The notes under the pieces are model-generated. The model had not been told where the DNA came from, did no database searches, and saw only the letters and a program-made list of their open reading frames with translations. From the NCBI GenBank assembly GCA_017440585.1, contig JAFSGW010000099.1, positions 1 to 64,000 of the forward strand: DNA of 64,000 bases, written 5' to 3'. Positions within the stretch are counted from its first letter, which is position 1. Each line of letters opens with the position of its first letter. Origin of the DNA: Clostridia bacterium. Lineage in GTDB: Bacteria > Bacillota > Clostridia > UMGS1883. Shown piece by piece: positions 304-13,282 of the stretch. The position numbers and the translations under genes are program-made.

Positions 304-3300
304 ATGAAAAATCTCAGAAGACTTTTAAGCCTTGTACTGGCAATGGCAATGGTTCTTTCCTTCAACGTGAGTGTTTCTCAGGCGGCAATATATGAAGATG
401 TGCCCGACACTCACAAGTATGCGAAAGCTATTAACCTGCTTTCAGGATTGGGCATTATCAACGGCTACGAAAATGGCGTTTTTAAGCCCGACCACACTAT
501 TACAAGAGCCGAAGCTGCTACAATTATTGTACGTACATTAGGTCTTGCAGACGACGTCAGAATGGGCGACACAATCTTTACGGACGTTGACGGCGACCAC
601 TGGGCATCCGGCTACATCAACATTGCTGTTGAAAACGGCATTATCGATGGTTTCCCCGAGGGTACATTCCTTCCCCAGGACAACGTTACATACGAACAGA
701 TGGTAAAGATGGTTGTTTGTGCTATAGGCCACGACCCTAAGGCGAAAGAGCTTGGCGGTTACCCCGACGGCTTTATCCGTGCAGCAAGCGATGCAAAGGT
801 TACAAAGGGCATTGCAGGCTTAGGCAAGAATCCTGCTCCCAGAGGCCTGGTGGCACAGCTTATCTACAACGCTCTTGAGGTTGAAATGATGGATGCTACA
901 AGCTACAACACAGGCATCCTTGGCACATCCTACACCTACAACGGCAAAACCCTTCTTAATGACTATCTTGACATTGAAAAGGTTGATGCAATAGTAACCG
1001 ATACATATCACACAGGTGAAACCTACTCCCGTCGTGACAAGTTCGTTGAGCTTGAAATTACAGAGGTTTACGGCTTAAAGAACAGAGTGAGCAACTCCCT
1101 TTATGAGGAAGGCGACGTTATCGAATTTGACGAGGGTGCGGCTGAAGAAGCAGGTAACTATCTGGGCAGAGCAATTACCGCTTATGTTGGTGAAGACCGC
1201 GACACCCGTGAGGATAAAATCTTTGCACTCACTATCGACTCCGCAAGAAATGAAGAGGTTGAGGTAACAAAGGAAAAGTTCCACGAAGCAAAGAGTGACG
1301 AAACAGTTATCAGCTACGCAAAGAGAGTTACCGACAAGCGTGTTACAGAGCTTGACCTTGCAAGAGGCGTGACAGTAGTTGTTAATGGTGCAATTGTTAA
1401 CGAGCCCATTACAGACTACTTTGAAGACTTTGACGTAATGACACTTGTTGACAACAACCGTGACAATAAGTACGACTTTATTTTTGTTGACATGTTCAAC
1501 GAAAGCGACGGTGTTGAGTTTGTTGTTGCCGAAATCGAAGAGGACGATGACGTTTACTACTTCGAGGGCAAAACAGGCGAGCTGGAGCTTGACTATGAGG
1601 ACGATAATTCCCTTATCAGAATCATTAAGGACGGCAAGGAGATTGAACCCGACGATATCGAAATTGACGATACAATCACATGCCTTGATGCTTCCAGAAG
1701 CATTATCACAGTTTATGTTTCAAGCGATAAGGTAAAGGGCTACATCGACGAGGTTGACTACGATGAGGATGAATACTACATAAACGATAAGCCGTATGAG
1801 CTTTCCGCAGCATTTGCTGAAGAGCTCAGAGCAGGCGATGAAGGCACCTTCTACCTTAACTACAAGGGTAAGATTGCATACTCCACAGTAGCAAGCCGTG
1901 TTGCAGGCGGTGACTATGTATTCATTGCAAACTACGACACAGAAACACAGTTCTCCAAAACAACCTACCTTGTGCAGGTTATTACAGAAAAGGGCGCAGT
2001 TAAGAGTTACACACTTAAGCCCTCCAAGATGAAGTACGTTGACCACATGGGTAACATGTACAAGAACGTTACTCCCCAGACAGTGTTCGATTATCTTCAG
2101 TTCCACAGAACAAGCCTTTCCAACCGTTACAACGTTCCGGGCTATGTTGGTATTGCCCGTGTAAAGGCTTCTTCTGCAGGTGTTATAAGCGAAATTTACC
2201 TTCCCGGCAGCTATGAAGAATTCTACGAGCAGACAAGATATGCCAACGAAAACAGCAAGGAATACTCCGCAAAGAGAGAAACCTACGGTAACTACGACCT
2301 TGACGGTGACACAGTAGCCTTCCGTGTGGACGACTCCGAGGAGGTTATTTCCGAGGCTGTTGAAGCAGGCACGGTAGATTCCTTCTTCACAGACGGCAGC
2401 AGCTACTGCTTCATCGCATACGGCGAACGTAACGAAGACATTGAAGCACTTGTTATCACAGACGGCATTGCAACAGCAAATTATCAGGACCATGCAATGA
2501 TTGTTACAAAGGTTTCCACAGTAAGAGTTGGCAGCGAAACAACAACAAAGCTTACAGGCCGTCAGGGAGATAGCGACGTAACATACCTTGTTGACCCCGA
2601 CGAAAACTTCCGTGTTGAAGTGGGTAACATTATCCTTGTTTCCGAAAACGCAGAAGGCTTTGTAGATGAGCTTGAGGTGGTTGCTTCCACAACAGATGAT
2701 GCCGACGACCTTTATGAAGCCTTTGACAATGCCGACATCCCCTCCGATGAGGATGCAGGCGTTTACGGCGGTATGGTTTCCGACACTACATCCAAGAGAT
2801 TCAGAATTGAAGGCATTGAAGATGCTTTCTACAACGATACAAAGACAGCATATCATCTTATTGACTACACTCTCAGAGAAACAACCTTCACAAAGGGCAG
2901 ATTCTCCGATATTAAGTTAACAAGCAGATACGACACCTTCGTTGTTGTAAGAACATACGAGGACAATGCTGTTGACGTATTTATCTTCCGTGTGGAAGCA
3001 GGCGAATACGATGTTCCCTCCACAGATATCTGGGATAACATGAGCTCCGCAGAGCCTACAGACGAGCCCACTGAGGAAGCTACAACAGAAGAGCCTACAG
3101 AAGCTCCCACAGCTGCACCTACTGTGGCTACAGAAGCAACAGAGGCTCCCACAGCTGCACCTACTGAAGCTACAGAAGCAACAGAGGCTCCTACAGCTGC
3201 ACCTACTGAAGCTACAGAAGCAACAGAGGCTCCTACAGCTGCACCTACTGAAGCTACAGAAGCAACAGAGGCTCCCACAGCTGCACCTACTGAGGCTACA

Positions 3301-3930
3301 GAAGCAACAGAGGCTCCCACAGCTGCACCTACTGAAGCTACAGAAGCAACAGAGGCTCCCACAGCTGCACCTACTGAAGCTACAGAAGCAACAGAGGCTC
3401 CTACAGCAGCACCTACTGAGGCTACAGAAGCAACAGAGGCTCCCACGGCTGCACCCACAGAAGGCCCCACAGTGGCTGTAACAGAGCCCACAACAGAGCC
3501 TTCCACAGATGGCCCCATCCTTGCAGAGGTTAAGAAGGTTACTGTTGATGAAAAAATGGCTGAGGCTGTATTGAAGCTTATCAATGCAGAAAGAGCTAAA
3601 TTAAACCTTCCCGCACTTGTATGGGATAAGGATGTTGCAAAGGTTTCCGAAGCACACTGTGTTGACATGGCAACAAATAAGTACCTTGACCAGAAGAACA
3701 AGGCAGGATTTGACCTTGCAAAGAGGCTTACAGAGGCAAAGATTAAGTTTACTGCATCTGCCGAAAATCTTGCACAGGGCAAGTTCACAGCCGAGGTTAT
3801 TGTAAATGCCTGGATGAAGAGCGAAAAGCATAAGGCAAACATTGTAAACAAGGACTTCACAAAGGTGGGTATCAGCGTTGCAACAGCAATTGACGGTACT
3901 GTATACTGGACAGTAGACTTTGTTAAATAA
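304..3930 (+). CDS. SLH-domain surface protein with Thr/Pro/Ala repeat linker and C-terminal CAP domain
   Basis: A 1208-aa secreted wall-associated protein. Residues 1-28 are a signal peptide. Two clear SLH repeats follow (about 30-80 and 92-145, with motifs such as FKPDHTITRAEAATIIVRTL) plus a weaker third to about 195; SLH domains normally bind pyruvylated wall polymers. Residues about 200-910 are acidic and related to the 908-aa SLH protein at 35914 (both have TGI.G..Y and IEKVDA/LEKVDA segments), so the two are paralogs. Residues about 915-1060 are a linker with eight copies of a 14-aa TEA/APTAAP unit. Residues about 1080-1208 resemble the CAP/SCP-like family (LINAERAKLNLPAL, VGISVA), often found in secreted proteins of spore formers. 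RBS aaaggaga lies just before the ATG. A terminator follows at 3966. Confidence 0.9.
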   Translation: MKNLRRLLSLVLAMAMVLSFNVSVSQAAIYEDVPDTHKYAKAINLLSGLGIINGYENGVFKPDHTITRAEAATIIVRTLGLADDVRMGDTIFTDVDGDHWASGYINIAVENGIIDGFPEGTFLPQDNVTYEQMVKMVVCAIGHDPKAKELGGYPDGFIRAASDAKVTKGIAGLGKNPAPRGLVAQLIYNALEVEMMDATSYNTGILGTSYTYNGKTLLNDYLDIEKVDAIVTDTYHTGETYSRRDKFVELEITEVYGLKNRVSNSLYEEGDVIEFDEGAAEEAGNYLGRAITAYVGEDRDTREDKIFALTIDSARNEEVEVTKEKFHEAKSDETVISYAKRVTDKRVTELDLARGVTVVVNGAIVNEPITDYFEDFDVMTLVDNNRDNKYDFIFVDMFNESDGVEFVVAEIEEDDDVYYFEGKTGELELDYEDDNSLIRIIKDGKEIEPDDIEIDDTITCLDASRSIITVYVSSDKVKGYIDEVDYDEDEYYINDKPYELSAAFAEELRAGDEGTFYLNYKGKIAYSTVASRVAGGDYVFIANYDTETQFSKTTYLVQVITEKGAVKSYTLKPSKMKYVDHMGNMYKNVTPQTVFDYLQFHRTSLSNRYNVPGYVGIARVKASSAGVISEIYLPGSYEEFYEQTRYANENSKEYSAKRETYGNYDLDGDTVAFRVDDSEEVISEAVEAGTVDSFFTDGSSYCFIAYGERNEDIEALVITDGIATANYQDHAMIVTKVSTVRVGSETTTKLTGRQGDSDVTYLVDPDENFRVEVGNIILVSENAEGFVDELEVVASTTDDADDLYEAFDNADIPSDEDAGVYGGMVSDTTSKRFRIEGIEDAFYNDTKTAYHLIDYTLRETTFTKGRFSDIKLTSRYDTFVVVRTYEDNAVDVFIFRVEAGEYDVPSTDIWDNMSSAEPTDEPTEEATTEEPTEAPTAAPTVATEATEAPTAAPTEATEATEAPTAAPTEATEATEAPTAAPTEATEATEAPTAAPTEATEATEAPTAAPTEATEATEAPTAAPTEATEATEAPTAAPTEATEATEAPTAAPTEGPTVAVTEPTTEPSTDGPILAEVKKVTVDEKMAEAVLKLINAERAKLNLPALVWDKDVAKVSEAHCVDMATNKYLDQKNKAGFDLAKRLTEAKIKFTASAENLAQGKFTAEVIVNAWMKSEKHKANIVNKDFTKVGISVATAIDGTVYWTVDFVK
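3123..3460 (+). repeat. 42-bp tandem repeat coding TEATEAPTAAP linker, 8 copies
   Basis: A 42-bp unit (14 codons) is repeated eight times in frame with few silent differences (cct/ccc, gaa/gag). It codes a flexible Thr/Pro/Ala/Glu spacer between the wall-bound part and the CAP domain. Near-identity between units suggests recent expansion or homogenisation, so copy number could vary between strains. Confidence 0.9.
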
Positions 3931-6101: not shown

Positions 6102-6105
6102 AAAG

Positions 6106-6143
6106 AGTGGATATCAAAAACAATTGTTTTTTGATATCCACTT
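6106..6143 (+). terminator. terminator after proBA
   Basis: A long stem (agtggatatcaaaa pairing with ttttgatatccact) with a short loop, then a T-rich stretch, just after the proA stop codon. Confidence 0.85.
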
Positions 6144-6164
6144 TCTGTTTTTAAGGGAATAGGA

Positions 6165-6320
6165 AAAATTGTTCAGAATTGACAAATCGAAGGTACACTG
6201 CGGTGTCCGCCCCGCAGTGTACCCTTGCCCGACGGCGTACAAGGGTACGTCGAGAGGTGAGATTTGTCGATAGCAAAAAGGCATAGAATAAGAGCAAACC
6301 ATCGTTAGGCGATGGTTTGC
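6165..6320. ncRNA. conserved structured element, copy A (three-helix junction plus terminal hairpin)
   Basis: An intergenic element shared with 12961-13117. Helix P1 pairs gacaaatc (6181-6188) with gatttgtc (6261-6268). Inside it, P2 pairs ggtacactgcgg (6192-6203) with ccgcagtgtacc (6212-6223) around loop tgtccgcc. P3 pairs ggcgtac (6234-6240) with gtacgtc (6245-6251). After a spacer with caaaaaggcata comes P4, gcaaaccatcg (6294-6304) with cgatggtttgc (6310-6320). In the other copy the helices differ in sequence but still pair, which points to selection for structure. It could be a small RNA or a non-autonomous mobile element; strand is unknown. Confidence 0.6.
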
Positions 6321-6347
6321 TACATTGTGAAGAGATTTAAATTTAGA

Positions 6348-6959
6348 TTATTTTTTTCTTTCAGCTTTTTTGTGCCTTTTTGCGGTCTGGGCGATTTTAA
6401 CATTCCCTTTCTTAACACTATATCCAAATGAGCCTATTTTTTTGCCTAAGGCGAAATACTGTCCGTGGGCATAAGCTGCAAGGGAGCACTTTTCAATGTG
6501 GAACTTACCCTTCTCGTCAATATATCTTTCGTCCACGTTAACTGCAACAATGTCCGCCATGAACATATCGTGACTGCCTAAATGCACAACCTCTGTAACC
6601 TTGCACTCTAAGCTTATGGGGCTTTGGGCAACCATTGGGCATTTTACGATGGATGCCTTTTCCTTTGTCAATTTACAGTCGGCAAATTTGTCGGTATTTT
6701 TACCGCTTCTGCAACCGCAGTAGTCAATAGAGCGGATAATGTGGCTTGAGGGCATATTAATAACAAACTCGCCCGATTCCTTAATCATGTGGTGAGAATA
6801 CCTCTCAGGACGGATAGAAACATAGGTCTTTGCAGGCTCGCTGTTTATAATACCGCACCATGCGGCTGTAATTAAGTTGTCCTCACCGTTTAAGCTGCAG
6901 CTTACCAGTACGGGCGGTACGGGGGCAAGTATTGTTCCGGGTTTCCATGTTTGTTTCAT
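6348..6959 (-). CDS. flavin reductase-like FMN-binding split-barrel protein
   Basis: A 203-aa cytoplasmic protein of the flavin reductase-like (DIM6/NTAB) family. The N-terminal pattern KPGTILAPVPPVLVSC, the central AAWCGIINSEPAKTYVSIRPERYSHH and the GEFVINMPS segment are typical of the FMN-binding fold. Family members reduce flavin or act as small oxidoreductases; the substrate is not predictable. The C terminus is Lys-rich. RBS gaaggaga lies before the ATG. It is transcribed toward copy A of the structured element. Confidence 0.85.
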   Translation of the reverse strand: MKQTWKPGTILAPVPPVLVSCSLNGEDNLITAAWCGIINSEPAKTYVSIRPERYSHHMIKESGEFVINMPSSHIIRSIDYCGCRSGKNTDKFADCKLTKEKASIVKCPMVAQSPISLECKVTEVVHLGSHDMFMADIVAVNVDERYIDEKGKFHIEKCSLAAYAHGQYFALGKKIGSFGYSVKKGNVKIAQTAKRHKKAERKK

Positions 6960-12865: not shown

Positions 12866-12879
12866 TTAATTAGCAATTA

Positions 12880-12935
12880 GCAATGAGTAATGAGCAATTA
12901 AGGAAAGAATTTTGCGAGCAAAATTCGATTAGAAC
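12880..12935. repeat. AT-rich dispersed repeat with gaattttgc hairpin
   Basis: Iterated words such as attagcaat and aatgagcaatt, followed by hairpin gaattttgc-ga-gcaaaattc (12907-12926). Similar tracts occur at 3933-3960, 56537-56558, 57268-57360 and 60118-60185. Confidence 0.55.
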
Positions 12936-12960
12936 ACTCTGCACTGAAGGCATCGCTCAC

Positions 12961-13117
12961 AAAAATTGTTCAGAATTGACAAACCGAAGGAAAACACGGT
13001 GTCCGCCCCGTGTTTGACCGTTGCCCGAAGGCGTACATAGGTACGCCGAGAGGTGAGGTTTGTCGATAACAAAAAGGCATAATATAAAAGAAAAATATTG
13101 CTTCTGCGATATTTTTC
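12961..13117. ncRNA. conserved structured element, copy B
   Basis: Same architecture as 6165-6320. P1 is gacaaacc (12978-12985) with ggtttgtc (13057-13064); one pair has changed from T-A to C-G relative to copy A. P2 is aaacacgg (12992-12999) with ccgtgttt (13008-13015) around the identical loop tgtccgcc. P3 is ggcgtac (13030-13036) with gtacgcc (13041-13047). P4 is gaaaaatattgc (13090-13101) with gcgatatttttc (13106-13117), unrelated in sequence to P4 of copy A but still paired. It lies between walK and the secreted-protein gene; strand and function unknown. Confidence 0.6.
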
Positions 13118-13249
13118 CACATTAATAATGAATATGGAATTCGCTTTGTCAATTTATTTGCTTTTTGCAGACAGAGGATTGTCATGAGGATGCGAAAAAT
13201 TGCCTTTTTGTGGTCTGGACAATTTTTTGTAATAGAGCGTTAAAGTGTC

Positions 13250-13282
13250 TGTTATTGTTTTGTAACATTAGTAGTGTATAAT
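13250..13282 (+). promoter_or_regulatory. promoter with WalR-box match before secreted-protein gene
   Basis: TGTTAT-tgttt-TGTAAC at 13250-13266 fits the published WalR consensus TGTWAH-N5-TGTWAH exactly. A sigma-A -10 (TATAAT, 13277-13282) lies just downstream with a weak -35 (TTGTTT, 13255-13260) inside the box. A further half-site TGTAAT lies at 13228-13233. The gene it serves sits inside the wal locus, which strengthens the call. Confidence 0.65.

Follow-up and report, generated by a model that had tools for sequence, protein, structure and literature searches.

Introduction

The repeats bcr1 to bcr18 of the Bacillus cereus group are dispersed, intergenic, foldable, MITE-like sequences which occur in multiple copies, some of them being transcribed within untranslated regions and some showing a conserved structure (PMC3446304). 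ERIC/IRU, BOX, RUP and SPRITE are further small structured mobile repeats of intergenic regions which may end up within transcripts; of these, SPRITE resembles a terminator, ERIC is predicted to form a single long stem-loop and BOX is modular (PMC2267715, PMC3049150). REPs, finally, are short palindromic extragenic hairpins which are present in many copies and moved by a RAYT (Y1) transposase (PMC3116915).

Here, we describe two copies of a dispersed structured element, about 260 to 290 bases each, within a window of 64,000 nucleotides which comprises positions 1 to 64,000 of contig JAFSGW010000099.1 from a Clostridia bacterium (assembly GCA_017440585.1). On the best reading the element resembles bcr1, ERIC and BOX in kind, from which it would differ as judged by their published descriptions. 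With bcr1 to bcr18 it shares a similar size, dispersal, foldability and multiple copies. Compared by description, it differs from these repeats, which are described from one species group, in that it spans 13 families of Clostridia, possesses a deeper multi-junction fold which covaries over a long range, and occupies a fixed position at stop codons. Likewise, its fold, taxon range and stop-codon placement distinguish it from ERIC and BOX as described. Similar to REPs and REPINs it is palindromic, extragenic and multi-copy but, unlike these, it is present in copy-rich genomes which lack Y1 transposases.

The copies probably make up a new family of mobile elements which are non-autonomous, dispersed and non-coding and whose plus strand adopts a single multi-junction structure. 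The common but little-studied gut Clostridia thereby gain a sizeable structured element with strong covariation and as many as about 48 copies per genome, and it becomes testable how small structured repeats move without a recognised enzyme as well as whether mobile elements supply genes with new 3' ends and terminators. Its copies also alter proteins, as exemplified by the tail of a flavin reductase encoded in the window.

Results and Discussion

Extent and fold of the two copies

A repeated structured element had been noted in a sequence-only reading of the window at both places concerned, and both copies are confirmed. They lie on the plus strand, copy 1 extending from 6153 to 6409 (P00 to P00') and copy 2 from 12954 to 13239, as delimited by the folds of minimum free energy (MFE) and the pairing arms and, for copy 1, by the family alignment. 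The range of 6165 to 6320 originally assigned to copy 1 turned out to be too short, since downstream of P4 three more helices are completed by their 3' strands, which lengthens the element by about 100 bases. Folded without constraint, copy 1 (6150-6412) yields an MFE of -118.7 kcal/mol (z -11.9) and copy 2 (12948-13250) one of -107.4 kcal/mol (z -7.7), with no shuffled sequence folding as well in either case. Both folds reveal an identical architecture. On the outside, P00 and P0 form a stem which ends in a three-way junction giving off P1 and P5; P1 leads to another junction, from which P2 and P3 emerge, and P5 encloses the P4 hairpin together with a variable stretch.

In copy 1, the 5' arm of P00 (6153-6160, AAGGGAAT), whose sequence varies from copy to copy, is paired with ATTCCCTT at 6402-6409, and that of P0 (6165-6177) with 6386-6398. 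The 5' arm of P1 (6178-6188), a helix showing double changes in the family, pairs with 6261-6271. The P2 hairpin, which one subtype lacks, occupies 6192-6223 (6192-6203 with 6212-6223), and the P3 hairpin (6234-6251, GGCGTAC/GTACGTC) represents the best-conserved sequence of the element; both are backed by covariation, P2 in addition by arm pairing. The 5' arm of P5 (6273-6282, GCAAAAAGGC) finds its partner GCCTTTTTGC at 6374-6383, and the stretch 6374-6409 provides the 3' strands of P5, P0 and P00. P4 (6293-6321), in the family average a hairpin with an A-rich base and a GC-rich top, is terminator-like on the minus strand in this copy. In copy 2, the pairing arms place P00 (CGCTC/GAGCG) at the outer ends, the 5' arm of P0 at 12959-12974 (partner 13214-13230), that of P1 at 12975-12985 (partner 13057-13067), P2 at 12989-13019, P3 (GGCGTAC/GTACGCC) at 13030-13047 and P4 at 13090-13117. 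The 5' arm of P5, ACAAAAAGGC at 13069-13078, pairs with GCCTTTTTGT at 13202-13211.

Between the copies, pairing is maintained by a double change from T-A to C-G in P1 and by a change from G-T to G-C in P3, both as originally described, and additionally by an exchange of G-C for A-T in P5. P00, P2 and P4 are paired in both copies despite differing sequences, in the case of P4 again in agreement with the sequence-only reading. The description of P2 held in part: pairing around TGTCCGCC is indeed kept, but over 12 versus 8-10 bp instead of 12 versus 8, and the supposed invariance of this loop does not extend to the family, where other loops occur and one subtype is entirely devoid of P2.

Covariation and the folding strand

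In a core alignment of 17 sequences two-sided changes are found in 17 of 25 pairs, and doubly changed cells amount to 45 compared to 10.8 in shuffles. For 82 distinct sequences, whose alignment was fitted to the covariance model and hence leans towards it, 355 doubly changed cells are counted versus 91 in shuffles, and 96.8% of the cells are paired, a share which falls below 50% once the alignment is slid by one column. When the arms are taken by anchors, independently of the model, own pairing reaches 95% of the cells in P5 and 84% in P0 versus 70% and 75% upon shuffling, none of 2000 shuffles being as high for either helix. For the arms of P00, too, pairing within a copy surpasses pairing between copies (0/5000 in the own-versus-cross test). 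No helix is without covariation, which extends to pairs separated by about 100-230 nt. These data, along with the compensated changes at the fixed rplT locus described below, support that the element is under selection for structure, as had been proposed from the two window copies; the fear that further copies might show no covariation did not materialise. In P2 there are almost no G-U intermediates, and hairpin-repair mutation may contribute to its changes. Such repair provides no explanation for P0, P1 and P5 because the strands of these helices are far apart.

G-U cells outnumber A-C cells by 105:15 in the core and by 126:30 in P0, and G-U is the commonest pair, and a conserved one, in P1 and P0. 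This large excess identifies the plus strand as the folding strand, which also folds better than the minus strand in a folding comparison. A functional reverse strand, suggested by the position in the 3' UTR of a gene, was rejected on the same counts. The compensated changes in place, as well as the large size of the fold, suggest that the folded plus strand is a functional molecule, most likely an RNA. The label "candidate ncRNA or hairpin element" holds within its limits; the element may be transcribed and act as RNA.

Copy number, subtypes and taxon range

A BLAST query of 141 bases retrieves 41 matched pieces from the 2.2 Mb genome to which the window belongs. A covariance model confined to the core (P1-P3) and built from 17 copies likewise gives 41 matches in this genome and further ones in relatives, so that the initial worry that a genome search might return the two window copies only is dispelled. 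The element is present in 28 of the 60 genomes of the relatives set, with a maximum of 48 copies per genome, and in 55 of 391 genomes of the class Clostridia, distributed over 13 families and 32 genera. Numerous genomes from other families are without any match to the model and serve as a negative control. The carriers of a 25-base core pattern are gut and environmental assemblies of Clostridia and Oscillospiraceae. Three subtypes can be distinguished: one has P2, one lacks it and one contains about 100 additional bases in P3. The P3 inserts of about 100 bases in L014, L017 and L018 (G000 contigs C91, C81 and C79) are similar to each other.

With curated thresholds, Rfam 15 contains no match to the element in the window, and 20 loci gave tRNAs only; a lax Rfam search with copy 1 produced matches at chance level only. 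Copy 1 finds no match in plasmid DNA or in the phage DNA of INPHARED. The literature offers general analogues only and does not describe the element, which a compilation of 3161 RNA candidates from human microbiomes (PMC8040213) could nevertheless include. The element is uncatalogued, and its fold, taxon range and stop-codon rule are undescribed for bcr1, ERIC and BOX in the cited literature.

Presence, absence and change in place across species

For a comparison of sites, a query of joined C-termini was used to retrieve the orthologs of three further congeneric species. At no fewer than nine loci, at least, which carry the element in its own genome it is absent from other species of the genus, where a terminator or other sequence is found instead. 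In the genome of the window, L049 and L052 (next to ilvE) still possess a terminator beyond the element, which indicates that the element entered in between the stop codon and this terminator. An insertion into the terminator loop splitting its arms, an idea prompted by the copy-specific outer stem, was discarded on account of the intact native terminator at these two clear loci. At several loci the element entered just before the stop codon and supplies a new one. The compared species are too distant for a base-by-base view of the insertion junction. Behind phosphoglucomutase, G001 contains a truncated remnant of the element (L264), while a full copy is located at the own-genome locus.

Behind rplT, the element is common to G000, G001 and G003, whereas G002 has a plain terminator. 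All three copies have the same unusual P1; judged by eye, they show compensated differences in P2, P3, P5 (GGC/GCC versus AGC/GCT) and P0 (GCACA/TGTGC versus GCAGA/TCTGC and TTTAG/CTAAA versus TTCAG/CTGAA). No terminator other than the element was seen at this locus. These changes would most simply be accounted for by selection for the fold while the copies remain in position, gene conversion from other copies being the alternative. The question raised at the outset of whether copies move or stay in place thus receives a two-sided answer: judged from these sequences, the element is mobile on species time scales, yet certain copies keep both their position and their fold.

The compensated rplT copies of three species and the nearly invariable position at gene 3' ends are also what one would expect if the copies were a non-mobile family of regulatory RNAs of the host, or of elements of 3' UTRs, whose members are gained and lost between species by recombination. 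This explanation appears unlikely to us, as it is at odds with the absence of the element from at least nine orthologous sites occupied by ordinary terminators, with near-identical copies and tandem arrays, with a copy in phage and with the unrelatedness of the neighbouring genes.

Placement at gene ends

In 74 of 93 copies a gene on the opposite strand faces the 3' end of the element. The stop codon of this gene is located at most about 30 nt, and often at most 10 nt, from the element end in 58 of the 74; the underlying gene calls are crude longest-ORF calls, adopted in place of a hexamer-score caller which missed many genes. The plus strand of the element is antisense to the abutting gene. 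The left flank often consists of a terminator hairpin ending in T's, with a mean MFE of -12.0 compared to -6.9 on the right. No promoter above chance is detected upstream of the element.

In the window, a bidirectional terminator hairpin of the left gene (6104-6144) directly precedes copy 1. On the other side, the flavin reductase gene (6348-6959, minus strand, Pfam PF01613) has its last codons and its stop inside copy 1, and the C-terminus of the protein reads GNVKIAQTAKRHKKAERKK compared to PTTKKRK in the G002 ortholog. As judged from this comparison, copy 1 replaced the C-terminal tail of the flavin reductase. The terminator-like P4 of copy 1 on the minus strand suggests that an inserted copy may terminate the gene which it follows. 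The terminator-like appearance of P4 and of the left hairpins could raise the suspicion that the copies are ordinary intrinsic terminators alike by convergence, which is hardly credible in view of the conserved core sequence and of long-range covariation over about 260 nt.

A first, longer pattern gave no match among viral contigs; with a shorter one, three near-identical phage contigs of IMG/VR (L355-L357) were found to harbour one copy each. In L357 (4800-5000), surrounded by terminase, head and lysis genes, the 3' end of the element directly follows the stop codon of the major head protein (capsid) gene beside a terminator, so the placement rule also holds in a bacterial virus. Phages are a possible vehicle between hosts.

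Tandem arrays and element borders in G023

G023, a genome with 98% completeness and 48 copies, contains elements in tandem with two bases in between, and near-identical copies occur alongside such arrays. Here, identity starts sharply at a 36-base hairpin and stops sharply at the last GGCCCC of the element. The element borders are inverted, in the manner of MITE-type terminal inverted repeats with own-copy pairing of the outer arms, and by eye show no consistent direct repeat or target-site duplication. The 36-base hairpin, CGTAGCAAAA...TTTTGCTACG, is a separate repeat with 29 copies in G023 (e.g. L333-L347); it directly precedes nearly every element examined there and appears to travel with it.

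Mobilisation

Placement, gain and loss, tandem arrays and inverted ends argue for a mobile, non-autonomous element. As is characteristic of MITEs, it is short, non-coding, dispersed and present or absent at orthologous sites; no autonomous transposon relative was encountered among the loci fetched. None of three candidate enzymes tracks the copies: RVT_1 is absent from G000, G022, G023 and other copy-rich genomes, Y1_Tnp from the copy-carrying genomes G002, G011, G023, G025 and G026, and IS110 transposase from G000 and G023, leaving G023 with none of the three. An origin from REP/RAYT or IS200/IS605 was rejected because of the copy-carrying genomes without Y1 transposase, and an IS110 bridge-RNA element because of the two genomes without IS110 transposase. 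A new movement mechanism is possible.

Group IIC introns insert next to terminators in a single orientation. Since the element shares this terminator-adjacent, orientation-specific placement, we considered that it might be a degenerate intron of group II (IIC-like), or the RNA of some other retroelement, which a reverse transcriptase moves in trans into terminators. We regard this as very improbable and rejected descent from a group II intron: unlike such introns, the element has neither an Rfam intron domain nor a linked or co-occurring reverse transcriptase, as illustrated by the copy-rich genomes without RVT_1 named above.

The folded molecule could also be single-stranded DNA, a transposon or recombination substrate bound by a recombinase, with transcription being irrelevant. 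Strand-specific folds bound by a recombinase are indeed known from attC sites and IS200/IS605 ends, and the missing promoter signal, insertion beside hairpins, tandem arrays, inverted termini and a plus strand antisense to the abutting gene all suit this explanation. Conserved G-U as the commonest pair in P1 and P0 and a two-junction fold are, however, more typical of RNA, and Y1 transposase does not follow the copies. We take single-stranded DNA seriously, yet as the less likely nature of the molecule.

According to the preferred reading of a mobile element folding as RNA, the plus-strand molecule would be recognised by a putative trans-acting enzyme or RNA-binding protein, and copies which lose the fold would no longer spread. 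An insertion separating stop codon and terminator would be tolerated because the reading frame remains almost intact and terminator-like hairpins (P4, and the outer stem plus T-run) are carried along; some copies, as at rplT, may then act as the 3' end of the gene. It is a bolder and rather doubtful proposition that the element exemplifies a new terminator-seeking, structure-dependent class of mobile RNA or single-stranded DNA in Clostridia and phages, moved by a ribozyme or by an enzyme other than reverse transcriptase, Y1 or IS110, and repeatedly domesticated as gene 3' ends.

Other repeats

Further repeats were met beside the element. The right flanks of L295, L302, L303 and L306 in G023 share a downstream sequence, TTACCATTTTGATATGCGCTGCGCTGAAGGA..., which constitutes another repeat family. 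A different dispersed repeat (TTAGCAATTAGCAATGAGTAATGAGCAATTAAGG-like) adjoins the element at 12866-12950 of the window and at L044. Elsewhere in the window, 304-3930 encodes a long protein of secreted type with a tandem EATEAPTAAPTEAT repeat in front of its C-terminal domain.
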